A DNA stretch of 64,000 nt from Firmicutes bacterium HGW-Firmicutes-1. Its GTDB lineage: Bacteria; Bacillota; Clostridia; Lachnospirales; Vallitaleaceae. Position 1 is the first letter of the stretch. Every line of letters begins with the position of its first letter. The stretch lies in NCBI GenBank assembly GCA_002841625.1, contig PHAG01000005.1:124001-188000 (forward strand). The letters run 5' to 3'. The notes under the pieces were generated by a model. That model was not told where the DNA came from. It saw only the letters and a list, made by a program, of their open reading frames with translations, and ran no database searches. Shown piece by piece: positions 591 to 11,949 of the stretch. Made by a program: the position numbers and the translations under genes.

Positions 591-809
591 AAAAAATATT
601 AACCTCTATAAAAAAGCTAAATTTTGAAATTGTAATGCAATTGACATAAAATAGTTAAATAAACTTAATAATAGAGAAGAAAATAGGAATAAGGGCCTAA
701 TGAGATTTATTTGAAAGCTGTTATACTATACTCGAGGGATTTTAAAATAGTTAAATTTTGGTATATTCGAGTAATATATCGCGCAATTAAATCTAAGGAG
801 GTATTTTTG

Positions 810-3182
810 ATGAAGTTAAAAAAGAGATTAGTAGTATTTTTAGTAATGACAATCATGGTTTTTAACACCTTTGGGGTTCAAGCTACGAATAACAAACACA
901 ATGAAAATAACGGCAAGTTTAAAGATGTAAAAGACGATCACTGGGCACGAGAATACATCGAGCTTATGACAAAGTATGGTATTATTAATGGTTATGATGA
1001 CAAATCCTTTAAACCTGAATCTGCGGTTTTCAGGGGAGAATTTGCAAAAATGATGGTATTGACCATGCAATTAGATCTAATCAATCCTGGAACAGGAACA
1101 TTTGAAGATGTAAAAAAAGGTGATTGGCTTTATAAACACGTGGAAACAGCCAAGCCATACTTAACAGGATTCGAATTAAATGGAAAGTATTATTTTAAAC
1201 CATCACTACAAGCTCAAAGAGAGGATATGGCAGTAGCAATTGTCAAAGGCCTAGGAATTGAGGCGGATAAAACGGACATGAGTGTATTAAGCACATTAAA
1301 AGATGAAAATAGTATTTCACCTATGTTAAGAAAGTATGTTGCTGCAGCAATCAATGAAGGAATAATGGTTGGAGATGATAATAAATACTTTAATCCTAAA
1401 CAAACTTTAACTAGAGCAGAAGCTGCAACCTTATTAGCAAGATTAATTATTGAAAAAAAGGTAGTATTTGACGAAACAAAGATTGTTATAGACGATACAT
1501 CAGTATCAACAAAGAAGCCTGTATTAACAGCAAAGACTGAAGGAAGTAAAATTGTTCTTGATTGGTCTAATGTTGAAGCAAGCGGATTTAACTACTATAA
1601 AGTAGTACTATCAAAAGGTGATTCAACTCCTTCTTATCCCGATAACGGATATGCAAAAGCTATTAGTAGCGTAACAACTTCCGGATGTGAATTAAAAGAT
1701 GGAGACACCTATAATGGTGGCGACTTAGGCGGAGCAATTAAAGCGGGTCAAACATATTATGCAAGCATAACGGCAGTATATGGAGACCAAAAATATACAA
1801 GTAATGTAATTACAATAAAGATTCCAGGAACAAGTGAAGCAGCAGCTCGAACAACGACTTTATCCTCTGCAGTTCAAGGCGATAAAATTGTTCTTGATTG
1901 GTCTAATGTACCGGCAACTGGATTTTCTTACTATAAAGTTGTGCTTTCCAAAAGTGATTCAACCCCTTCTTATCCGAGTAATGGTTATGCAAAGGTTATT
2001 ACGAGTGCAACTACCTCTGGATGTGAATTAAAGGCCGGGGAAACCTATAATGGAGGCGACTTAGGCGGTTCAATTAAAGCAGGTCAAACGTATTATGCAA
2101 GTATCACAGCAGTATATGGAGATCAAAAATATACAAGCAATGTTGTTACCATAACCATTCCAGGAACAACCGATGCTACTATAAAAGCTAGAACAACAAT
2201 TTTATCATCATCAATCCAAGGAGATAAAGTTGCTCTTGACTGGTCCAATGTTGCAGCCACTGGATTCACCTACTATAAGGTTGTTCTTTCTAAAAGTGAT
2301 TCAACCCCTTCTTATCCAGATAATGGTTATGCGAAGGTGATTACGAGTGTTACAGGCTCTGAGAGTAAAATCGGTGCTGGAGACACATATAGTGGTGGCG
2401 ATTTAAGCGGATCAGTTAAAGCAGGGGAAACATATTATGCAAGCATTACTGCAGTATATGGTGATCAAAAATATACTAGTAATGTAATTACCATTAAAAT
2501 CCCTGGAACAAGTGAAGCTGTTGTAAAAGCAAGGACTACTGCTTTAACTTCTTCAATTCAAGGAGATAAAGTTGTTCTTGATTGGTCTAATGTCGAAGCA
2601 GCAGAATTCTCCAATTATAAGGTTGTTCTTTCTAAAAGTGATTCAACCCCTTCTTATCCAGAAAACGGTTATGCTAAGTCCATTACCAGTGTAACTACCT
2701 CAGGATGTGAAATTAAGGCAGGGGACACATATTATAGTGGTGATATAAGTGGTTCAGTAAAAGCGGGCGAAACTTATTATGCGAGTATAACAGCAGTATA
2801 TGGAGATCAAAAATATACCAGCAATGTAGTCACAATAAAGATTCCGGGAATAAATGAAGAAACTGCAAGAACGGCAGTTTTAACCTCCTCTACAGTAGAT
2901 GGCAAAATTAAGTTGGCATGGACAAAAACTGATGCGACTAAATTTACTCATTATAAAGTTGTGTTATCAAAATATAACACAAGTCCTAGTTATCCGGATG
3001 ATGGATATGTTGCTGTTATTTCTGATAATGAAAATATTAACTATGTCCTTGTTGCAGGAACGGACTATCAAGGTGGGGATGTAGAAACGATTACATCTGG
3101 TCAAACCTATTATGCAACAATCACATCAGTATATGAAGATGGAAAGTATACGAGTAATGTTATAACGATTACTATTCCATAA
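810..3182 (+). CDS. S-layer homology protein with five fibronectin-III-like repeats
   Basis: Predicted cell-surface protein of 790 aa. The start is ATG 810, which follows AAGGAGG at 795-801 and opens a signal peptide (KLKKR then a hydrophobic stretch); an upstream in-frame TTG at 711 has no ribosome site. Three SLH domains occupy about residues 37-215 (for example DVKDDHWAREYI, GYDDKSFKPE, and a third ending LTRAEAATLLARL) and should hold the protein to secondary wall polymer. Five repeats of roughly 110 aa follow, each with LDWSNV, YYKVVLSK, STPSYP-NGYAK and QTYYASITAVYGDQKYTSNV, resembling fibronectin-III folds. The last repeat is the most diverged. Ligand or partner is unknown. Confidence 0.85.
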   Translation: MKLKKRLVVFLVMTIMVFNTFGVQATNNKHNENNGKFKDVKDDHWAREYIELMTKYGIINGYDDKSFKPESAVFRGEFAKMMVLTMQLDLINPGTGTFEDVKKGDWLYKHVETAKPYLTGFELNGKYYFKPSLQAQREDMAVAIVKGLGIEADKTDMSVLSTLKDENSISPMLRKYVAAAINEGIMVGDDNKYFNPKQTLTRAEAATLLARLIIEKKVVFDETKIVIDDTSVSTKKPVLTAKTEGSKIVLDWSNVEASGFNYYKVVLSKGDSTPSYPDNGYAKAISSVTTSGCELKDGDTYNGGDLGGAIKAGQTYYASITAVYGDQKYTSNVITIKIPGTSEAAARTTTLSSAVQGDKIVLDWSNVPATGFSYYKVVLSKSDSTPSYPSNGYAKVITSATTSGCELKAGETYNGGDLGGSIKAGQTYYASITAVYGDQKYTSNVVTITIPGTTDATIKARTTILSSSIQGDKVALDWSNVAATGFTYYKVVLSKSDSTPSYPDNGYAKVITSVTGSESKIGAGDTYSGGDLSGSVKAGETYYASITAVYGDQKYTSNVITIKIPGTSEAVVKARTTALTSSIQGDKVVLDWSNVEAAEFSNYKVVLSKSDSTPSYPENGYAKSITSVTTSGCEIKAGDTYYSGDISGSVKAGETYYASITAVYGDQKYTSNVVTIKIPGINEETARTAVLTSSTVDGKIKLAWTKTDATKFTHYKVVLSKYNTSPSYPDDGYVAVISDNENINYVLVAGTDYQGGDVETITSGQTYYATITSVYEDGKYTSNVITITIP
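1519..3180 (+). repeat. Five tandem ~340-bp coding repeats
   Basis: Internal DNA repeats of the S-layer gene. The block encoding GDQKYTSNV recurs near 1785, 2120, 2463, 2806 and 3130, a period of about 336-345 bp. Copies two to four share long near-identical stretches, which suggests recent duplication or gene conversion; the fifth is diverged (YEDGKYTSNV). Confidence 0.8.
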
Positions 3183-3456: not shown

Positions 3457-4095
3457 ATGGAAAGAATTGGGACGGATTTAATAGATATGGAAAGAATTAT
3501 GAATGGCATTGAAGGGATTAACGCTACAAAAATCATCTACAATGACTATAATGAAATAGAGGAAATACATATTATTGCTGATCAGAATAGAGGAGCTAAA
3601 CAAATATCCCGAGATATTCAATCCTTACTCATTGCAAAGTTTGATATTAAAGTTGATCATAAAAAAATTAGTGTCGCACAAATCAGTTCCGAGGAAAAAG
3701 GAGAAAAAAGCCATAGATTCTCCATTGGAGCAATTGGATATTGCCAAGTAGACAATTTGGTAGAAATAAAAGTAATTCTAAAAAAAGATGGCAAAGAATT
3801 TGAATCTACAGTAAAAGGTGCAAATTCTAGAAACAATATATACCGTTTATTTGTACAAGCCACAATAGAATGTGTTCATAATTCACTAGGAATAAACGAC
3901 ATATTTATTGTTGAAGACATTGTGAAGGTAATCGTTGCCAAGCAAGAAGTAGTAAATATTGCAATTTCATTTATATCTAGAGATAGAGAGGAGCTTCTTG
4001 TCGGTTGTGCAATACTTAAAAAAGATGATTATGAAGCCATAGCCAAAGCTACTCTGGATGCTGTTAATAGAAAAGTGGTACAACTAGCTATGTAA
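3457..4095 (+). CDS. Unknown conserved-looking 212-aa protein
   Basis: I do not recognise a named family. The start is ATG 3457 with AAGGAG at 3442-3447; an earlier in-frame ATG (3433) lacks a site. The product is soluble, without signal peptide or membrane segment. The N-terminal part (EGINATKIIYNDYNEIEEIHIIAD, then RGAKQISRDIQSLL) looks like a small alpha/beta domain, and the second half contains two similar segments (about residues 85-140 and 155-212), each with a beta stretch followed by a helix beginning around an NxxxRLFVQATIECV- or YEAIAKATLDAV-like sequence, suggesting a duplicated fold. It stands just upstream of the small-peptide/HD-GYP cassette and may be co-transcribed with it. 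Confidence 0.7.
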   Translation: MERIGTDLIDMERIMNGIEGINATKIIYNDYNEIEEIHIIADQNRGAKQISRDIQSLLIAKFDIKVDHKKISVAQISSEEKGEKSHRFSIGAIGYCQVDNLVEIKVILKKDGKEFESTVKGANSRNNIYRLFVQATIECVHNSLGINDIFIVEDIVKVIVAKQEVVNIAISFISRDREELLVGCAILKKDDYEAIAKATLDAVNRKVVQLAM

Positions 4096-4100
4096 TATTT

Positions 4101-4297
4101 TTTAGGTCGGTTTTATTTTCATTGATTCATTAGCGAAGCGATATAGCATGCTATCATTAGCGAAGTAGCAGAGCCTGATTAAAAGGAGGCTATATCAAAT
4201 GAAAACTAAAGCAATCGCACTATTAATGACAATATTATCTTTATTATTGGCATCTGGCGCAACACATAGCTGGAGATAGTTTATAGGCCGACCTAAA
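4101..4297. repeat. 10-bp perfect inverted repeat enclosing a mini-gene
   Basis: TTTAGGTCGG at 4101-4110 is the exact reverse complement of CCGACCTAAA at 4288-4297. The arms enclose the 26-codon ORF at 4199. Inside are two copies of CATTAGCGAAG (4129-4139 and 4155-4165) and the palindrome ATAGCATGCTAT (4143-4154). GATATAGC (4140-4147) is complementary to GCTATATC (4189-4196), which overlaps the end of the ribosome-binding site, so a structure that hides the site is possible. The function is inferred, not shown. Confidence 0.55.
4199..4279 (+). CDS. Small secreted-peptide-like ORF (26 aa)
   Basis: Too short for usual gene callers, but it has a near-perfect ribosome site (AAAAGGAGG, 4181-4189) about 9 bases before ATG 4199. 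The peptide begins with a positive end (MKTK), has a hydrophobic core of about 15 residues and ends SGATHSWR, so it reads as a signal peptide carrying a short C-terminal tail. It sits 38 bp before an HD-GYP gene that has a large membrane sensor region. I infer a short exported signalling peptide sensed by that protein; a translated leader that controls the downstream operon is the main alternative. No family was recognised. Confidence 0.6.
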   Translation: MKTKAIALLMTILSLLLASGATHSWR

Positions 4298-4316
4298 TTA
4301 TATATAAGGAGATAAC

Positions 4317-5603
4317 ATGATGGAAAAAACGTCATTAAAATTAAAAGTGTACATATCCTTCATTCTTCTGTTAGGAATCTGTTCAGTTATTTTAGGATTT
4401 GGTTATTTAACGCGTGAAAACATAACTACATTGTTATTTTTTACAGTATTAGGTATTATCGCAGAATCAGTTGCCATAAGAATGAGTAACGGTATAGCGA
4501 TTTCAGTAAGTCTTGGGGTAGGTCTATCGGCAGTATTAATATTTCAATCACCTGTCGTATGTATCATATCATTTTTTTCAATGCTTCTTTTCTTTGAATC
4601 TGTTGATGGTAAAGTAATCCATATATTTAATAGTTCTATCATTAAAAGACTATTTAGTGGTAGTGCATTTGCAATATCTTTATTTTTTGCAAATGTTGGT
4701 TATGATATTTCAACTAAATTATTCTGGAAATTTCAATTTCAAGGCTACAATATTATTGGTATTTTGATGATTATTTTAATATTTAGCATATTAGATACGG
4801 GTATTTTTTTGACACTTATATCTTTAATCGAAAACAAAACTATTCATAATGTCGTAAATGAAGAAACATGGTTAGCTCTGTTAGTAGACTTCATAGCGAT
4901 TACACCACTTGGTGTTATAATTGCTGTAATTTTTAGCAATTACGGTATGTTTGCAGTTGCGCTTTTTTTCGGACCATTGTTATTAGCGCGTTATTCGTTT
5001 AAGCTTTATATAGATATGAAAAGAATGTATTCAGAAACAATTGTGGCATTGTCTAATGCTATTGATGCCAAAGATCAATATACATGTGGGCATTCCCATA
5101 GAGTGGCGGATTATGCAGTAGAAATAGCAAAACATATGGGTTTAAATGAAACTCAAATTGATAAAATCCGTACAGCTGCCATATTACACGATATTGGAAA
5201 GATTGGGATTGATGATATTATACTGAATAAACCAGGTAAACTGGAAGAAGTAGAATATGTTGAAATAAAAAAGCATCCAGAAATTGGTGCTAACATACTT
5301 ATGCAAGTTGCGAACTTATCAGAAGTAGCGATGATCATTAAACATCATCATGAACGGTATGATGGTTTGGGTTATCCCGAGGGTATTGGAGAAGATTTGG
5401 TACCAATCGAGTCGTACATTATATCGGTTTCTGACGCTTTTGATGCGATGACATCAGACAGACCTTATAGAGCAGCTATTGATAATGATGTTGCAATACG
5501 AATTATTATTAGTGAATCGGGAAAACAATTTAAGCCAGAAGTCGTTAAAGCGTTATTGCAATACATCGATTATAAGGAGGAACATTTGGTTTATGCTAGT
5601 TGA
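4317..5603 (+). CDS. Membrane HD-GYP phosphodiesterase (c-di-GMP)
   Basis: A 428-aa protein with about eight transmembrane helices in residues 1-235 and a C-terminal HD-GYP domain from about 240 to 420. Key residues are visible: GHSHRV, ILHDIGKIG (near residue 290), HHHERYDGLGYP (near 343) and DAFDAMTSDRPYR. HD-GYP proteins hydrolyse cyclic di-GMP, so a membrane-borne input probably tunes c-di-GMP level. AAGGAG lies at 4306-4311; ATG 4317 or ATG 4320 could both serve. The 3' end overlaps the next gene by 11 bp, so the two are probably translationally coupled. The sensor part has no recognised ligand domain; the short peptide upstream is a candidate input. Confidence 0.88.
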   Translation: MMEKTSLKLKVYISFILLLGICSVILGFGYLTRENITTLLFFTVLGIIAESVAIRMSNGIAISVSLGVGLSAVLIFQSPVVCIISFFSMLLFFESVDGKVIHIFNSSIIKRLFSGSAFAISLFFANVGYDISTKLFWKFQFQGYNIIGILMIILIFSILDTGIFLTLISLIENKTIHNVVNEETWLALLVDFIAITPLGVIIAVIFSNYGMFAVALFFGPLLLARYSFKLYIDMKRMYSETIVALSNAIDAKDQYTCGHSHRVADYAVEIAKHMGLNETQIDKIRTAAILHDIGKIGIDDIILNKPGKLEEVEYVEIKKHPEIGANILMQVANLSEVAMIIKHHHERYDGLGYPEGIGEDLVPIESYIISVSDAFDAMTSDRPYRAAIDNDVAIRIIISESGKQFKPEVVKALLQYIDYKEEHLVYAS

Positions 5604-6165
5604 AGCACTTTGTATACCCCTGATTATCGGTAAGTTAAGAGGCGGAAATTTAAAAAATCTATTAAATATTCAAGTGAAAATGTGGTGGCTCATTACTGTT
5701 GCGGGATTCGTTGAATTTTTGTCATCTTTTGTTAGAATGCAAGAGATTGGCTCTATTTGGCGAGTAATTGATGAAAATATTTTTTGGATTCATTTGATAT
5801 GTTATAGTTTATTAATCTTTGTATTGATATTAAACCGGAATCAGAAGGGTTTTGTTTTACTCTTGATAGGTACCATATTAAACTTTAGTGTGATTATGGT
5901 TAACGGAGGTAGAATGCCTGTTGAGATTGGATCTGTTGAACATTTGATGTCAGCAGAGACAGTAGAAGCACTTAAATTAGGAAAAGATCTCACCCATACG
6001 GTTTTAAATGAATCTACTAGATTGAGGTTTTTAGCAGATGTTATACATTTACCCAAACCATACCCCTTCCCAAAGAGTCTCAGCATTGGAGACCTATTTT
6101 TAATTGGAGGGGTTTTTAGATTAATTCAAGCATCAATGGTAACTAAGGCAACAAAGGCTAAATAA
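5593..6165 (+). CDS. DUF5317-type membrane protein
   Basis: A 190-aa integral membrane protein with about five helices and the landmarks LIIGKLRGGNLKNL near the N-terminus, NGGRMPVE in the middle and a C-terminal GDLFLIGGVFRL, as I recall for the DUF5317 family found in clostridia, often beside HD-GYP genes. The start is ATG 5593, inside the end of the HD-GYP gene, with AAGGAGG at 5574-5580 and a rather long 12-base spacing. Biochemical role unknown; the overlap implies joint function with the phosphodiesterase. Confidence 0.72.
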   Translation: MLVEALCIPLIIGKLRGGNLKNLLNIQVKMWWLITVAGFVEFLSSFVRMQEIGSIWRVIDENIFWIHLICYSLLIFVLILNRNQKGFVLLLIGTILNFSVIMVNGGRMPVEIGSVEHLMSAETVEALKLGKDLTHTVLNESTRLRFLADVIHLPKPYPFPKSLSIGDLFLIGGVFRLIQASMVTKATKAK

Positions 6166-6213
6166 ACTTTTCAAAATTAGGCTGGAAGAATGTATTTAAA
6201 ATACAAAGCATTA

Positions 6214-6222
6214 TGGTATAAT
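6214..6222 (+). promoter_or_regulatory. Extended -10 promoter for the pyrophosphatase gene
   Basis: TG-G-TATAAT at 6214-6222 is an extended -10 element. Its last bases form the first in-frame ATG (6221), so transcription starts after that codon and translation must begin downstream, at TTG 6263. Confidence 0.55.
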
Positions 6223-6262
6223 GAAAAAGATCAAATTAATTATTAGCAAGGAGTTGAAGATA

Positions 6263-7894
6263 TTGGGTGATAGAAAGCCAATACATATTTTCGGACATCT
6301 TAATCCAGATACGGATTCAATATGTTCTGCGATAGCTTATGCGTACTTAAAGAATAGGATAGATCCAAGTATGGAATATATTCCTGCAGCATTAGGGATG
6401 GTTAATGAAGAAACGGGATATGTACTAAAGTACTATGGCGTTGAAGAGCCTAAAGTTATTTCTCATTTAAAGCCACAGGTGCTGGATATTGAGTTTATGG
6501 AAAGTACATGTGTTCATGAAATGGACTCGTTAAAAAAAGTATTGGAAGCTATCATCGGACAAGTGGGTCGTTCGGTACCTGTTGTTGATGATAGTGAAAG
6601 ATTAATTGGTATAGTATCAATCTCAGATGTAGTACCTATGTTGCTTTCCACAAATAATAGTTTTGATATGAAGAAAGTAAAAATTCCTATAAAAAATCTA
6701 ATAGAAATCTTAGAGCTTACCCTTCAAAAGGGGAGAATAGAAGAACAATTTATTCAAGGTAATATTTACATGTGCAGTGAACTATCGAAAGAGCAGGATA
6801 TTACAAGTAATGATATAATACTCTGCAATAAAAAAGAACTTAAATTGGCTAATAAACGTGTGTTTGGAGCGGGTTATATTGTCGTTTGTGATACAAATGA
6901 TGAAACTCCAAGTATCAGTGAAGATTATAATGGCGTTGTTTTTACATCACCCAAAAGTGTTTTTGAAATAATACAAAATATTATACATGCACTACCGATT
7001 TCATCAATTGTAAAAAAAGATCAACTGGAATATTTCACAACCTATGAAACGATTGATGATGTTAAGAAAAACTTTTTAACTTCAAAGTATAGAAGATTTC
7101 CAGTTGTAGATGAAGCTGGTTTTATCAAGGGCATGATTTCTAGAAGTAATTTAATGGAAGTTGAACAAAAAAAGGCAATTTTAGTAGATCACAATGAAAG
7201 AGGACAATCAATAGAAGGAATAGAAAATATAACGATTGTAGAAGTAATTGATCATCATAGGGTAGCTGATATTCAGACCATTTCCCCTTTATACTTTCGT
7301 GTTGAACCAGTAGGAAGTACTTGCACAATTGTAGCCAAAACATTTGAGGAAAACAATATAAAAATACCAAAACAGATTGCAGGTATATTGTTAAGTGGAA
7401 TTTTATCTGATACTTTGGTTTTTAAATCTCCAACCTGTACAGAAATTGATAAGGTAATGGCTGAAAAGCTAGCAATGATATCAGGGGTAAACATTTATCA
7501 ATATGGTATGAAGATGATTACCAAAGGTGAAAAGCTGCAAGATAAAGAGCCCGAACAAATTATTACAGGTGATATGAAGAGGTTTACATTTGGACAATAT
7601 AAGGTTGTAATTTCTCAAATAAATACGGCGGACTTTGCAGGATTATATCAAATGTATCCTAAAATTCTTGAAGCAATGGAAGCAAAATGTAAATTAGATG
7701 GGCTGGATCTAGCAGTTCTCATGGTTACTAATATTGTTGTTGGTGGAACTGAGGTTATTGCCACAGGTGAAGCAAGATGGATTGCTGAAAATGCCTTTAA
7801 TATGACGAAAAGCGATGAAAGCATCTTTTTGAATCAAACCTTTTCTAGAAAAAAACAAATCGTTCCCAAGCTTATGAAAGCAGCACAACTATAA
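6263..7894 (+). CDS. ppaC: Manganese-dependent inorganic pyrophosphatase with CBS and DRTGG domains
   Basis: Family II (DHH) pyrophosphatase of 543 aa that hydrolyses pyrophosphate to phosphate. The N-terminal metal-binding GHLNPDTDSICSAIAYA, the DHH motif (VIDHHRVAD, about residue 333), and the DHHA2 signature SRKKQIVPKL near the C-terminus are all present. Between the first catalytic segment and DHH lies an insert of about 240 residues: CBS repeat (PVVDDSERLIGIVSISDV), a DRTGG-like segment (VFGAGYIVVCDTND) and a second CBS repeat (FPVVDEAGFIKGMISRSNL). Such inserts make the enzyme responsive to adenine nucleotides and diadenosine polyphosphates. TTG 6263 is chosen as start because AAGGAG is at 6248-6253 and the -10 box covers the earlier ATG. 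Confidence 0.92.
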   Translation: MGDRKPIHIFGHLNPDTDSICSAIAYAYLKNRIDPSMEYIPAALGMVNEETGYVLKYYGVEEPKVISHLKPQVLDIEFMESTCVHEMDSLKKVLEAIIGQVGRSVPVVDDSERLIGIVSISDVVPMLLSTNNSFDMKKVKIPIKNLIEILELTLQKGRIEEQFIQGNIYMCSELSKEQDITSNDIILCNKKELKLANKRVFGAGYIVVCDTNDETPSISEDYNGVVFTSPKSVFEIIQNIIHALPISSIVKKDQLEYFTTYETIDDVKKNFLTSKYRRFPVVDEAGFIKGMISRSNLMEVEQKKAILVDHNERGQSIEGIENITIVEVIDHHRVADIQTISPLYFRVEPVGSTCTIVAKTFEENNIKIPKQIAGILLSGILSDTLVFKSPTCTEIDKVMAEKLAMISGVNIYQYGMKMITKGEKLQDKEPEQIITGDMKRFTFGQYKVVISQINTADFAGLYQMYPKILEAMEAKCKLDGLDLAVLMVTNIVVGGTEVIATGEARWIAENAFNMTKSDESIFLNQTFSRKKQIVPKLMKAAQL

Positions 7895-8027: not shown

Positions 8028-8051
8028 AGTAAAAATGCAAAGGATGATTAT

Positions 8052-9506
8052 ATGACTGGAAAAGATTTGCAAGAGAACATAGCTTATTTTAAAAGACGTT
8101 TCAAATCTGATTCTACGGTTATCTTTAGAGATCTTGAAAGTGACTGTGGACAGATAAAAGGTTGTTTGATCTTTATTAAGGGCATGATTAATCATGAAAT
8201 CATCAGTCGAAGCATCATTTTGCCGATTCAAAGACTAAATCTTGAAAAGAAACAACATAATAGCGACATCCTATCTTTCTTGAAGAAAAGAATTATTACT
8301 GCGGATGAGATACAGCTCGTCACAGAGACAGAGTTCATTGTAAAGAGTCTACTATATGGAGATACTCTGCTGATGATAGATGGGTATTCTGCCTGCTTAT
8401 TGATTCAAACCAAGGGGTGGGAAAAACGAGGTATAAACGAACCAGATACCGAACGGGCGATATTAGGATCAAAGGAGGCTTTTACAGAGTCAATTGTAAC
8501 CAATTTAACCATGATAAGAAGAAGAATTATCGATTCGGATCTGAAATTTGAAGCCATGGAAGTTGGAACGGTTACAAGGACGAAAATTTTCATGATATAT
8601 TTGGAAAATGTGGCACCACAAGAATTGATTGATGAAATAAAAACAAAAATAAACTCCATAAAAATAGACGCTGTGTTAGATTCACAGTACATCACAGAGT
8701 GTATTTCTAATCAACCCTTATCTATTTTTAGAACGGTAGGGCTATCAGAAAGGCCGGATGTGATTACTGCTAAACTACTAGAAGGAAGAGTAGCAATAGC
8801 TTGCGATGGAACACCAGAATTAATTTATGGACCTTACTTATTTTATGAGCAATTTATGGTGAATGAAGACTATTACAATAATTATATATTTTCTTTTATA
8901 AATCGAGTATTAAGGATTTTTGCTTTCTTAGTTAGTACAAGTATACCGGCAATTTATATTGCACTCATTAGCTTTCATCAACAAATGCTACCGAGGGAGA
9001 TCTTTATGAGTATATCAGCCTCGAGAGAAGGCGTTCCTTTTCCCTCATTTTTAGAAGTATTTTTATTGCTAATGACCTTTGAATTAATTAGAGAAGCTGG
9101 AACGAGATTACCTAAGAATATAGGTAATGCAATAAGCATTGTTGGAGCCCTTATCTTGGGAGAAGCAGCAGTAGGTGCTCAAATTGTCAGTGCTCCGGTT
9201 GTTATAGTTGCTGCGCTAACAGGCATTACAAGTATAATGTTGACGCAAAATATTCATTCATTAATGGTCATACGGTATGGGTTATTAAGCATTTCGGGAA
9301 TATTTGGAATGTATGGATATATTTTTGGAGTTATGGTGCTATCTATTTATTTGTTAAGCTTAAACAGTTTTGGAGTGCCATATATGACCTTTATTTATAA
9401 TATGCGAGTCAATAACGATTCGATTTTTCGAAAACCGTTTCAATACAATAGGAACAATGTAAGAACATTGTTAAAGAGAAGTAAAAATGAGGTAACAGAC
9501 AAGTGA
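8052..9506 (+). CDS. Spore germination receptor A subunit (GerA/GerKA family)
   Basis: A 484-aa inner-spore-membrane subunit of a germinant receptor. The N-terminal ~250 residues are soluble with typical family stretches (LLYGDTLLMIDGY, GSKEAFTESIVTNLTMIRRRI, LSERPDVITAKLLEGRVAIACDGTP), followed by four to five helices containing PAIYIALISFHQQMLP, SREGVPFPSFLEVFLLLMTFELIREAG and GALILGEAAVGAQIVSAPVVI. ATG 8052 is preferred (AAAGG at 8039-8043) over GTG 8016. It begins an A-C-small-B operon and overlaps the C gene by 4 bp. The germinant cannot be told from sequence. Confidence 0.93.
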   Translation: MTGKDLQENIAYFKRRFKSDSTVIFRDLESDCGQIKGCLIFIKGMINHEIISRSIILPIQRLNLEKKQHNSDILSFLKKRIITADEIQLVTETEFIVKSLLYGDTLLMIDGYSACLLIQTKGWEKRGINEPDTERAILGSKEAFTESIVTNLTMIRRRIIDSDLKFEAMEVGTVTRTKIFMIYLENVAPQELIDEIKTKINSIKIDAVLDSQYITECISNQPLSIFRTVGLSERPDVITAKLLEGRVAIACDGTPELIYGPYLFYEQFMVNEDYYNNYIFSFINRVLRIFAFLVSTSIPAIYIALISFHQQMLPREIFMSISASREGVPFPSFLEVFLLLMTFELIREAGTRLPKNIGNAISIVGALILGEAAVGAQIVSAPVVIVAALTGITSIMLTQNIHSLMVIRYGLLSISGIFGMYGYIFGVMVLSIYLLSLNSFGVPYMTFIYNMRVNNDSIFRKPFQYNRNNVRTLLKRSKNEVTDK

Positions 9507-10651
9507 AAAAAGTTATTTTAATAATACTCCTAGTACTTGCTACAGCACTTGAGACAACAAGTTGTGATTATAAACCAATAGAAAATATACCGATGGTTAT
9601 AGGCTTAGCAGTTGATCCCATAGAAGATGGATATAGATTAACAGCAAAGGTAGTAATACCGGCAGGAAGTTCAAATGATGGCAGTATCAGTGAGGAGATA
9701 TTTATTCAATCTAGTGGAAAAACGATGTTTGATGCTGTGAGAGATTTCATTATGAAAGAAGGGCAAAAGGTGTTTTGGGGCCAGCTAGAATTCATGGTGA
9801 TCAATGAAACCATTGCAGAAGAAGATATAACGGGAGTTCTTGATTTTTTTATTAGAGATAACGAAGTAAGAGAAAATATTTGGCTATTAATTTCCGATAA
9901 AGAATTAAAGGCAGAAGAAGTATTGATGGCAAGCTTTAGCGAAAAAAAACTTCAATTTTACATTTCAGATGCTTTAAAAAACATAGATTATGTATCGAAA
10001 TACAGCACAATGAGTTTGATTGATTTTAGTAAAATCTACAGTGACAAGGGCAAAGAGCAAGTGCTCCCATTCATTAAAATTGAAATAAGCCTTGGACAGA
10101 AACGAATTATACTAAATGGAGGAAGTGTTTTCAAAGATAATAAAGCCGTAGGTCGGCTTGATGGCAAAGAAATGCAACGATATAGAATGTTATTGGGAGA
10201 GAATGCTGGAATTTATGTGATTGATTATAAAGAAAGCGGTAATGAATCTAAAATATCTTTAGAGATTGGTGATACAAAAAGTAAAGTGCGTATTCAAAAA
10301 AAGGATGGGAAGTATGTTATCACGGTACAATTAAGCATTATTGGTGTAATAGGAGAAATTGAGGATAATCGGGTTAAAATATCCACAAAAGAAAAATTAG
10401 AGGAGTTTAAAAAACATGCTGAAATTCAGTTGGAAGAGGAGCTTGCTGCCTTCATAATTAAAATTCAAAAAAACTTTGGTAGTGACATATTTGGATTTGG
10501 TGAGAAATTTAAAAATAAATATCCAAAGGTTTTTAAAGAATTAGAAGATAACTGGAATGAGGTCTTTTCCTCTTTAAATATCGAGGTTGAAGTTAAAGTA
10601 AGTATTACAGGAACGGCTCAAAATAAACAGCCGCTTTATAAGGAAGATTAA
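9503..10651 (+). CDS. Spore germination receptor C subunit, Ger(x)C lipoprotein
   Basis: A 382-aa lipoprotein that forms the outer-leaflet part of the germinant receptor. A lipobox (LETTSC, Cys at residue 21) follows a hydrophobic signal sequence, and the next residues DYKPIENIPMVIGLAVD fit the Ger(x)C start. The C-terminal domain includes EEELAAFIIKIQKNFGSDIFGFGEKFKNKYP, very typical of the family. The GTG start overlaps the A-subunit stop codon, and GAGGT at 9490-9494 serves as ribosome site. Confidence 0.93.
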   Translation: MKKVILIILLVLATALETTSCDYKPIENIPMVIGLAVDPIEDGYRLTAKVVIPAGSSNDGSISEEIFIQSSGKTMFDAVRDFIMKEGQKVFWGQLEFMVINETIAEEDITGVLDFFIRDNEVRENIWLLISDKELKAEEVLMASFSEKKLQFYISDALKNIDYVSKYSTMSLIDFSKIYSDKGKEQVLPFIKIEISLGQKRIILNGGSVFKDNKAVGRLDGKEMQRYRMLLGENAGIYVIDYKESGNESKISLEIGDTKSKVRIQKKDGKYVITVQLSIIGVIGEIEDNRVKISTKEKLEEFKKHAEIQLEEELAAFIIKIQKNFGSDIFGFGEKFKNKYPKVFKELEDNWNEVFSSLNIEVEVKVSITGTAQNKQPLYKED

Positions 10652-10652
10652 T

Positions 10653-10841
10653 ATGACATTAAGTACATGGGTAATGTTCACAGCGATTGGTTTGTTGGAT
10701 TTTTTTTGGAATTTAAAAAAAATGAGTAAAAAAGATTTGAGGCTCTATATATTCATTTTTCTTCTCTTTCAAATTTTATATGTCCTAGTAAGTATGGATA
10801 AGATACCCCATCACTTTGCTAGTATTGTTAAGGTATGGTAA
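10653..10841 (+). CDS. Small two-helix membrane protein of the ger operon (D-subunit-like)
   Basis: A 62-aa protein with two transmembrane stretches (residues about 4-21 and 30-47), separated by a lysine-rich turn (NLKKMSKKDLR). It starts one base after the C-subunit stop codon and its own stop codon precedes the B-subunit ribosome site directly. Some Bacillus receptors carry a small two-helix D subunit that modulates the response; position and topology match, but no sequence match can be claimed. A spurious ORF is unlikely because it fills the gap exactly. Confidence 0.68.
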   Translation: MTLSTWVMFTAIGLLDFFWNLKKMSKKDLRLYIFIFLLFQILYVLVSMDKIPHHFASIVKVW

Positions 10842-10854
10842 AGGAGAAAAGTTT

Positions 10855-11949
10855 ATGGCGCAAAAACTGTCACAAAAGCAAGCAGTAAGTATAGTGGTTA
10901 TGTTTATAGTAGGAACTGCTATGATTTCTGGCGTCGCTAAAACAGCAGAAGAAAATGCATGGATATCCATTATTTTGGCTGCAATCATTAGTAGCCCAAT
11001 ATACTTGATTTATGCGAATTTACTCGAAAGTTTTAAGAATAAAAATATTTATGAGATCTGTGAAATAGTTATGGGTAAAATCATAGGGAAGATTGTTTCA
11101 ATTATTTTTACCTTCAATGGTATTTATCTTTCAGCTATTTTGATTAGAAAGGTTGCAGAATTTATGAACATTACGGGACTAGATGGAACCCCGATTATGA
11201 TGATTATTCTTTTGATCGTTCTGGCAAGTGTTTATATGATGAAGAAGGGCATTGGTGTTTTTGGAAAGTGGTGCCAGTTTTATTTTAACATTGTCATCAT
11301 CGTTGTTGTATTTGAAGTTGTTTTATTAACTCCAATCAGGGAATTGGATGCGTTGTATCCAGTTTTATATAATGGTATGAAACCAGTATTAGAGAGTACA
11401 ACATATCTTATTGGATTTCCAATGATACAATGTGCACATTTACTGAGTTTTATAAATGAACTTGATGAAAAAGCATCCTATAAAAAGGTTTTTTTGTACG
11501 GACTATTGATATCAACGTGTATATTGATTATCGTAACAGTTGATAATATAACCGTTTTAGGACCAACAATGTTTTCTTCAGCCTATTATCCATCCTATTT
11601 AACATTTAGACAATTAGCAGTTGGGGATTTTTTAAGAAGAATAGAAATTCTTTCAGTACTAATGTTTTTGATCGTTGGTTTTGTCAAGTATACTTCATCA
11701 CTATTTTCTGCTGTAATTGGTTTAAAACATGTATTTAATCTACAAACCTATTACTTTACAGTTGTGCCTGTTGCCTTCATATGCTCAATTTTGGCGTTTA
11801 TTGCTTATGAGGATAGTATAGAAGTAGATACAGTAATTAATAAAATATATATGCCCTACTCCCTTGTTATTAATGCGTGTGTACCAATCATCATTTATAT
11901 AACTTATTTAATCAGACGAAAACTATCCCTTATTCATGCTCAAAGATAG
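10855..11949 (+). CDS. Spore germination receptor B subunit, Ger(x)B permease
   Basis: A 364-aa integral membrane protein with about ten helices, of the APC-superfamily group that forms the B subunit of germinant receptors. Family features are the start KLSQKQAVSIVVMFIVGTAMI, NIYEICEIVMGKIIGKI and FSSAYYPSYLTFRQLAVGDFLRRIEIL. ATG 10855 follows AAGGAG (10841-10846) at good spacing; the earlier in-frame ATG 10816 has none. Last gene of the germination operon. Confidence 0.92.
   Translation: MAQKLSQKQAVSIVVMFIVGTAMISGVAKTAEENAWISIILAAIISSPIYLIYANLLESFKNKNIYEICEIVMGKIIGKIVSIIFTFNGIYLSAILIRKVAEFMNITGLDGTPIMMIILLIVLASVYMMKKGIGVFGKWCQFYFNIVIIVVVFEVVLLTPIRELDALYPVLYNGMKPVLESTTYLIGFPMIQCAHLLSFINELDEKASYKKVFLYGLLISTCILIIVTVDNITVLGPTMFSSAYYPSYLTFRQLAVGDFLRRIEILSVLMFLIVGFVKYTSSLFSAVIGLKHVFNLQTYYFTVVPVAFICSILAFIAYEDSIEVDTVINKIYMPYSLVINACVPIIIYITYLIRRKLSLIHAQR

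Follow-up and report, generated by a model that had tools for sequence, protein, structure and literature searches.

A conserved micropeptide gene within a structured leader RNA ahead of a membrane HD-GYP gene

In the 64,000-nucleotide stretch of DNA analysed here (the window), the interval between positions 4095 and 4317 is supported by comparative evidence as a conserved structured leader RNA, and it carries a mini-ORF of 26 codons that is likewise supported as encoding a protein kept by selection. The next gene downstream encodes a membrane HD-GYP enzyme, and the micropeptide has probably been overlooked as a partner or regulator of this enzyme. Our best explanation, to which we give slightly less than an even chance, is that the micropeptide is a membrane peptide serving this adjacent enzyme specifically, and that the leader RNA which carries it also gates its production.

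Layout of the locus and the HD-GYP protein

All features described here lie on the forward strand. The mini-ORF (4199-4279) encodes the 26-residue micropeptide MKTKAIALLMTILSLLLASGATHSWR and is preceded by the Shine-Dalgarno AAAGGAGG at 4182-4189. The 26-codon ORF with a good ribosome site noted in a preliminary description of this DNA is real. The HD-GYP gene follows at 4317-5603, and its end overlaps by 11 nt with a gene for a DUF5317 membrane protein at 5593-6165. Both gene assignments had been made beforehand and are borne out by Pfam: the HD-GYP product matches HD_5 (E=1.3e-33), and its neighbor matches PF17248 (E=1.1e-38, with 133 bits against a curated cut-off of 25).

The HD-GYP product is a putative c-di-GMP phosphodiesterase, judged by its catalytic HD and GYP motifs with their metal ligands: H291, D292, H320, H344-H345, and G352-Y353-P354 are invariant in an alignment of 36 sequences, and the predicted fold of the catalytic domain reaches Z 24.7 to 4mcw. 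The invariant catalytic residues and the fold are shared with known HD-GYP phosphodiesterases such as 4mcw, from which the protein differs in having an ECF S-component-like membrane sensor, and the gene in having an RNA/micropeptide element ahead of it. The eight-helix sensor of the preliminary description was roughly right, although the model has about seven longer helices ahead of the HD-GYP linker helix. Residues 28-212 of the model align with ECF S components, whose fold has six helices, at Z 13.1-13.4 over ~160 residues, a Z level possibly common for helical bundles, and several S components are among the structural matches. In its predicted fold, the sensor resembles S components such as TmRibU (5kbw) and 4hzu, here fused to a signalling enzyme. 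In transporters, the S-component fold contains a ligand pocket; to our knowledge, few of the cues to which membrane HD-GYP enzymes respond have been identified.

Of the HD-linked loci, 30 have 2,400 nt or more available, and DUF5317 is found downstream in 24 of these; it is found in none of the loci without HD-GYP in the examined stretch. In the cassette proposed earlier, DUF5317 is a usual neighbor, although not an invariable one. Outside the phylum, DUF5317 occurs in Thermotoga maritima and Thermus composti. A search of the literature on DUF5317 found no paper.

Upstream of the leader lies a conserved gene (3457-4095) of an unnamed family, termed UP212, whose 30 members have no convincing Pfam or NCBIfam match and no PDB-sequence match. 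Its product has two predicted domains, one like the CDF C-terminal domain and, at the C-terminal end, one like the amino-acid-binding LeuA regulatory domain (fold Z 8.7 and 10.9), an assignment that comes from VIA-align and is accompanied by low Foldseek TM-scores (best 0.41). UP212 precedes all 29 class-level and all 28 phylum-level RNA matches inspected. Two matches of the R2 model have no UP212 match beside them among the matches listed, namely a partial one in G792, which is left out of the count of 96, and a second one in G780. Neither this linked upstream gene nor the structured RNA around the mini-ORF figured in the preliminary description.

The structured leader RNA

The core of the leader matches our R1/R2 RNA model at 4127-4201 (E=1.9e-11) and is the sole convincing copy in its own genome; a second match there (L066) has E=1.34, and tblastn finds no UP212, HD-GYP, or DUF5317 beside it. 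The inverted repeats around the mini-ORF are ruled out as a mobile element by this single copy, seen with both blastn and the RNA model.

The whole mini-ORF is enclosed by a long-range helix, P0, in which the 5' arm TTTAGGTCGGTTT (4101-4113) pairs with the 3' arm AGGCCGACCTAAA (4285-4297). In all 45 near loci, the score of the cognate helix equals or exceeds the 99th percentile of shuffled pairings (24), with medians of 34 for cognate, 17 for non-cognate, and 16 for shuffled pairings; among held-out loci, 35 of 48 reach this percentile and 13 fall short. When partners are ranked, a locus's own 3' flank is the best for only 22/45, with at most three others equal or better, which we put down to relatives sharing arms. 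The 3' arm lies 4-20 nt past the mini-ORF stop in 34/45 loci (2-35 nt overall), and 37 nt past it in one held-out locus that reaches the P0 percentile. We rejected P0 as a general intrinsic terminator, since T runs follow some 3' arms but not constantly.

Within P0, the core has a first, conserved AGCGRAG motif outside the helices (4132-4138). In helix P1, the partner of the 5' strand GATATAGC (4140-4147) is 4189-4196, where the ribosome-binding site ends, and the P2 hairpin (TGCTA/TAGCA; 4149-4170) holds a second AGCGRA motif in its loop (4159-4165). In a 46-locus alignment, 11 of the 14 pairs in these core helices have changes on both sides (5/8 in P1 and 6/6 in P2), and 95.7% of cells are paired, a result matched in 0/500 shuffles. 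The predictions differ in detail: RNAalifold on a 17-sequence alignment finds P1 and not P2, and in the single-sequence MFE fold of the window RNA, P0 is present, whereas P1 is replaced by a pairing between the ribosome site and the 3' strand of P2. P1 rises above the shuffled 95th percentile in only 6 of 59 held-out, more distant loci; given this count and its absence from the single-sequence fold, P1 is unsupported as a phylum-wide feature, and gating through it may be limited to nearer loci. The sequence motifs reach further, with AGCGDA present in 54/59 held-out leaders. The structured RNA around the mini-ORF suggests RNA-level control.

One form of such control would be an orphan riboswitch, in which binding of a small molecule to the AGCGRA-containing core would turn translation of the micropeptide on or off. 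Near-invariant, unpaired AGCGRA motifs set around covarying helices are what such a switch would look like, as is a ribosome site that lies in P1 and finds a competing partner in the single-sequence fold. This explanation is weakened by the poor showing of P1 in distant loci, by a repeated motif that could equally be a protein site, and by the lack of a match to any Rfam class. Searches of Rfam returned only three unrelated rows up to E=5 for window positions 3900-6400 and only four rows up to E=2 for six relatives, all below the gathering score, and as far as Rfam covers them, known RNA classes, including the c-di-GMP riboswitch, are rejected for want of a covariance-model match. We consider a riboswitch unlikely, while stressing that it is compatible with a micropeptide dedicated to HD-GYP and that the two do not exclude each other.

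Among the described RNAs closest to this one is the odc1 motif (uORF-25-1), likewise a structured RNA in which a stem holds the ribosome site and the main ORF is preceded by a short, conserved one; it is alphaproteobacterial, encodes an 11-residue peptide, and precedes other genes (PMC8632094). The Downstream-peptide motif and yfr6 are conserved RNAs directly ahead of a short peptide ORF (PMC2864571), whereas the RNA here encloses its ORF, is tied to an HD-GYP gene, and has no Rfam match. Among the literature matches listed for HD-GYP together with short ORFs, structured RNAs, S components, or small membrane proteins, open-access titles and abstract openings held nothing that could be identified as this element.

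The micropeptide, its linkage, and its selection

The mini-ORF is present in all 17 full-length HD-GYP loci first compared, which are near relatives and include the window's own locus, and of 398 genomes sampled from the phylum, 87 encode a short peptide of the common pattern, a figure for which not every locus was individually read. A scored peptide follows 26 of the 28 phylum-level RNA matches, and the remaining two have a degenerate version started by GTG. Evidence for linkage comes from 94 UP212 loci (three short stretches at contig ends were left out): the scored peptide is found in 47 of the 48 with HD-GYP in reach and in none of the 46 without HD-GYP in the examined stretch. The latter rule out UP212 as the cognate gene of the peptide. 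Conversely, the peptide is present without UP212 within ~1 kb upstream at L041, L043, L047, L248, and L252, although the genomes G010, G014, and G018 carry UP212 elsewhere. Eight of 20 further HD-GYP loci have no scored peptide, among them one without upstream sequence and two second copies; a scan of the genome contigs added three distant HD-GYP loci of no use here.

These counts support a link of the peptide to the ECF-S-type HD-GYP and not to UP212 alone. The preliminary description had staked its proposal on conservation of the mini-ORF in related loci, and the mini-ORF proved to be conserved in frame with HD-GYP across the phylum; the functional link it proposed between peptide and HD-GYP is well supported by this co-occurrence. 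The earlier interpretation, which also had the peptide exported and sensed, is borne out in part. Gene linkage of this kind indicates a common role, not binding.

The peptides share a K/R start, a patterned hydrophobic helix, mostly an L-A-G-G-A core, and a short tail. K or R is found among the first four residues of 114 of the 115 distinct peptides, and an acidic residue within the first 18 positions in only 5/115, which points to membrane insertion. In the numbering of the pattern, Leu occupies -1 in 98/109 and -3 in 93/109, and A, S, or T occupies -4 in 94/109 and -7 in 90/109. Purifying selection is apparent from a summed pS of 0.43 against a pN of 0.18 over 72 pairs, which are close relatives and non-independent.

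The pattern agrees with a Sec signal peptide with type I cleavage, in that a basic n-region is followed by a hydrophobic h-region and the residues at -3 and -1 are small, but it also agrees with a transmembrane helix. An exported pheromone would therefore be conceivable, with the 26-mer as a signal-peptide precursor cut after SGA, GGA, or AGA and its tail (THSWR in the window) sensed outside by the S-component-like sensor. The basic n-region, the mostly small residue at the putative cleavage position -1 (A 92, S 7, G 6, N 4; n=109), the short tails of 3-10 residues with an aromatic residue in 104/109 and W at +4 in 59/109, and a membrane sensor of a fold that holds a ligand pocket in transporters all speak for it. 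Its arrangement also recalls AgrD and Rgg/SHP-type pheromones, in which a short gene adjoins a sensor gene; unlike in AgrD, the ring-forming Cys of a cyclic lactone autoinducer is missing in 109/115 peptides (six have a Cys), and the window peptide has no match in NCBIfam (E<=10) or Pfam, searches in which a 26-residue query has little power. An objection is that individual positions are better conserved in the hydrophobic part than in the tail, whereas a generic leader would be freer. Because conservation is position-specific inside the hydrophobic segment, a membrane-resident partner of HD-GYP is favored over a shed pheromone, which we regard as improbable.

We rate just as low a regulatory leader peptide (an attenuator or uORF), of which only the translation or stalling would matter, opening P0/P1 and tuning HD-GYP translation, the peptide having no later role. 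This idea agrees with the position of the mini-ORF, which is enclosed in a closed RNA immediately before the main ORF, with the 3' arm of P0 most often lying 4-20 nt past the stop, and with conserved residues that presumably correspond to the exit-tunnel contacts of arrest peptides. Unlike in arrest systems of fixed geometry, the distances from core to stop (the 3-10-residue tails) and from stop to 3' arm (2-35 nt, and 37 nt in the one held-out locus) vary here, the T runs past the 3' arm are inconstant, and the K/R start and scarcity of acidic residues suggest a peptide meant for the membrane. AT-rich DNA contains many short ORFs, yet a chance ORF beside a conserved RNA can practically be dismissed, given one residue pattern in 115 distinct sequences, peptide-scoring controls of 0/97 each on the reverse strand and in shuffled sequence, and an excess of silent changes over replacements per site.

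A proposed mode of action and its meaning

In the reading we prefer, a gated micropeptide dedicated to HD-GYP, the mini-ORF is enclosed by P0, and in nearer loci comparative support places the end of the ribosome site in P1. The peptide would span the membrane once, as a short helix whose positive N-terminus stays on the inside, and its small-residue face (A/S/T ... LAGGA) would pack against the HD-GYP membrane sensor or DUF5317, thereby setting the output of the phosphodiesterase. Folding of the RNA, whether brought about by a ligand, by a protein, or by the act of translation, would decide the amount of peptide relative to enzyme. A precedent may be seen in MgrB, a small membrane protein that regulates the sensor PhoQ; the likeness is one of proposed mode, in which a membrane sensor is acted on by a peptide of one helix, and not of sequence. 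Here the enzyme acted on would be an HD-GYP protein, and the peptide gene lies inside a structured leader.

A bolder version, which we hold only tentatively and think unlikely as a whole, is an undescribed phylum-wide module in which a structured RNA of a new class, gated by a ligand or a protein, controls a ~25-residue transmembrane micropeptide, the dedicated regulatory subunit of S-component-type HD-GYP enzymes, and so passes an RNA-sensed cue to c-di-GMP output. The conserved ~25-codon gene and its RNA have no match in Pfam, NCBIfam (window peptide), or Rfam. If our reading is true, they would represent a further bacterial micropeptide in which RNA folding and protein sequence are selected together, and the micropeptide and its gating RNA would offer an experimental handle, since both could be mutated while the HD-GYP enzyme itself is left intact.

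The micropeptide gene and its neighbours

The cassette proposed in the preliminary description is present in the window: a 26-codon mini-ORF (4199-4279, + strand) with a strong ribosome site (AAAGGAGG, 4182-4189, +) is followed by an HD-GYP gene (4317-5603, +) and a DUF5317 gene (5593-6165, +), the latter two overlapping by 11 nt. The catalytic residues of HD-GYP are invariant in a 36-sequence alignment. Its structure model (mean pLDDT 90.5) has a membrane domain in which residues 28-212 look similar to ECF transporter S components (Z 13.4 and 13.1, ~160 residues aligned); the HD-GYP domain that comes after it is of standard form (4mcw, Z 24.7). Where an HD-linked locus spans 2,400 nt or more, DUF5317 lies downstream in 24 of 30 cases.

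Upstream lies UP212 (3457-4095, +), a gene of an unnamed family for which we found no convincing family match. Its model (mean pLDDT 89) has two domains. The N-terminal one resembles the CDF metal transporter C-terminal domain with a Z of 8.7, close to what common arrangements score; the C-terminal one is similar (Z 10.9) to the regulatory domain found in LeuA and in citramalate synthase. UP212 is a candidate ligand sensor. The gene is usually, not always, 5' of the RNA/micropeptide element and can sit elsewhere in the genome. Farther out, a gene for an SLH-domain surface protein with several similar repeats by eye (804-3182) ends shortly 5' of the cassette, a CBS-domain-bearing manganese inorganic pyrophosphatase of the DHH-DHHA2 type (6263-7894) is encoded directly 3' of DUF5317, and a GerA-type spore germination protein is the first product of a gene row (8049-11949) that also contains an ORF of 62 residues (10653-10841).

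Loss of the mini-ORF from related loci had been named beforehand as an outcome that would speak against the proposal; the ORF is instead retained at the full-length loci compared first. Among 96 genomes, the window's own included, HD-GYP matches occur in 42 and are full-length or nearly so in 17. At each of these 17 loci, the gap 5' of HD-GYP contains a 25-30-codon ORF whose product has an (A/S)(S/A)GA core and a hydrophobic segment. Silent difference per site exceeds replacement difference (0.43 vs 0.18) when summed over 72 close, equal-length pairs, which were picked from 352 for low divergence and are not independent. Several pairs encode identical peptides with one to four silent changes.

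A structured leader RNA around the mini-ORF

The gap is occupied by a conserved leader in which two AGCGRA motifs accompany two helices: P1, whose 3' strand spans the spacer and the last part of the ribosome site, and P2, a hairpin with the second motif in its loop. The first 17 leaders give modest support, with 4 of 14 pairs changed on both sides and a pair-type number reached by 24 of 500 shuffles; RNAalifold recovered P1 from them and did not recover P2. An RNA model built from these leaders, R1, detects a single copy in the genome of the window, at E 1.9e-11; the second-best hit there, E 1.34, was taken as chance. Across the class, 38 of the 391 genomes, that one among them, have one copy apiece. 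At 29 inspected loci besides our own, with 8 weaker matches left out, UP212 is always present and HD-GYP is present at 28, the remaining locus being cut by a contig end. Across 46 model-aligned leaders, 11 of 14 pairs changed on both sides and 95.7% of cells pair (reached by 0/500 shuffles; slid partners pair in 29-53% only), in an alignment that was fitted to the structure and leans towards it.

A long-range helix, P0, surrounds the entire mini-ORF. Cognate flanks give 9-22 consecutive pairs at 45/45 loci, leaving out L086, whose contig ends within the ORF; scores are 24-46 (median 34), against medians of 17 for non-cognate and 16 for shuffled flanks and a shuffled 99th percentile of 24. From lineage to lineage, the arms vary greatly in sequence. 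In the window, the arms (4101-4113 with 4285-4297, +) pair in the predicted minimum-energy fold (z -2.36). Here the ribosome site is paired not with P1 but with the P2 3' strand (4165-4169 with 4189-4193), an alternative that may be the other state of a switch. Rfam gave no plausible match in window 3900-6400 or in six relatives. Four leaders (L104, L112, L118 and L119) carry an extra AGCGGAG copy, so the motif may be a module that can be repeated.

In 59 held-out loci, outside those used for model building, AGCGDA occurs at least once in 54 leaders and at least twice in 36 (mean 1.88 vs 0.14 shuffled), and P0 scores as high as the 99th percentile of shuffled flanks, or higher, at 35 of the 48 loci with enough flank to compare (11 had too little). 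P1 did not stand out, reaching the shuffled 95th percentile in 6 of 59. Thus, P0 and the AGCGRA motifs are general, whereas the evidence that P1 covers the ribosome site is confined to the 46 nearer loci.

Linkage to one HD-GYP orthologue

A second model, R2, built from the 46 leaders, matches 46 of 398 phylum genomes. At 28 loci from the 44 new genomes, UP212 is present in all and HD-GYP in 27 (the exception is a short contig); a peptide score derived from 43 of the 45 initial peptides, with 12 as its threshold, finds the mini-ORF in 26, whose two exceptions carry a shorter version with a GTG start. UP212 occurs in 156/398 genomes. From among the UP212 matches listed we drew 97 loci, some from genomes with an R2 match, and excluded 18 more, several near contig ends. 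With three stretches under 600 nt omitted, a scored mini-ORF is found in 47 of 48 loci with HD-GYP in the stretch and 0 of 46 without (Fisher p 6e-26, the loci not being independent); the exception, L186, has AGCGGAG motifs in its leader and a low-scoring GTG-started ORF. Reverse-strand and shuffled controls each gave a scored mini-ORF in 0/97.

Twenty further HD-GYP loci were picked for apparent absence of an adjoining UP212 match, although one (L243) does have one; a profile finds UP212-like sequence upstream in 11, and 12 have a scored mini-ORF. The other eight comprise one without upstream sequence, two second copies (the mini-ORF accompanies the first copy in both genomes), one just below threshold with a similar peptide, and four without a clear mini-ORF. 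The second ECF-S-type HD-GYP copies, L234 in G628 and L235 in G479, thus lack a scored micropeptide, implying that the peptide is tied to one orthologue and not to every such HD-GYP. A scored peptide is present at this locus in 87 of 398 sampled genomes, and a peptide or R2 match occurs in 96, a count that leaves out G792. Tandem full-length HD-GYP genes occur on contigs G682:C48, G533:C6, G658:C56, G706:C135, G634:C28, G605:C36, G487:C11 and G571:C4 and at L139; G682 also has two tandem UP212 genes 5' of the element.

Peptide pattern and possible mechanism

We compared 115 distinct peptides of 19-34 residues, a set that omits eight phylum-level R2 loci. K or R is among the first four residues in 114, and an acidic residue occurs in the first 18 in 5. 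In the 109 peptides that fit an anchor pattern (six were dropped), Leu occupies -1 in 98 and -3 in 93, A/S/T occupies -4 in 94 and -7 in 90, and the core is mostly AGGA; tails of 3-10 residues contain an aromatic in 104, with W at +4 in 59. Packed transmembrane helices show position-specific conservation and a small-residue face within the hydrophobic segment. We infer from these two features that a membrane-resident partner is to be preferred over a pheromone.

Sequence comparison supports the ORF, its selection, the RNA helices and the linkage. The best-supported reading, still tentative, is that a membrane micropeptide dedicated to HD-GYP is encoded within the leader RNA and controlled by it: the peptide would sit in the membrane, contact the HD-GYP membrane sensor and affect c-di-GMP, and the leader may respond to an input. 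An orphan riboswitch, itself compatible with such a micropeptide, is a rather unlikely description of the leader, and a leader peptide of which translation alone matters is improbable. An exported pheromone is doubtful, since the hydrophobic segment shows position-specific conservation and that of a cleaved signal peptide is usually freer to vary.

Among the RNA parallels found, two come nearest to a leader with a mini-ORF: the odc1 motif (PMC8632094) and, likewise, the Downstream-peptide motif (PMC2864571). Among the titles and abstract openings listed, nothing was recognisable as the RNA/micropeptide element, which has no match in Rfam 15, Pfam or NCBIfam. Small membrane regulators and conserved short ORFs inside regulatory RNAs are known kinds, and the element is of unusual breadth.
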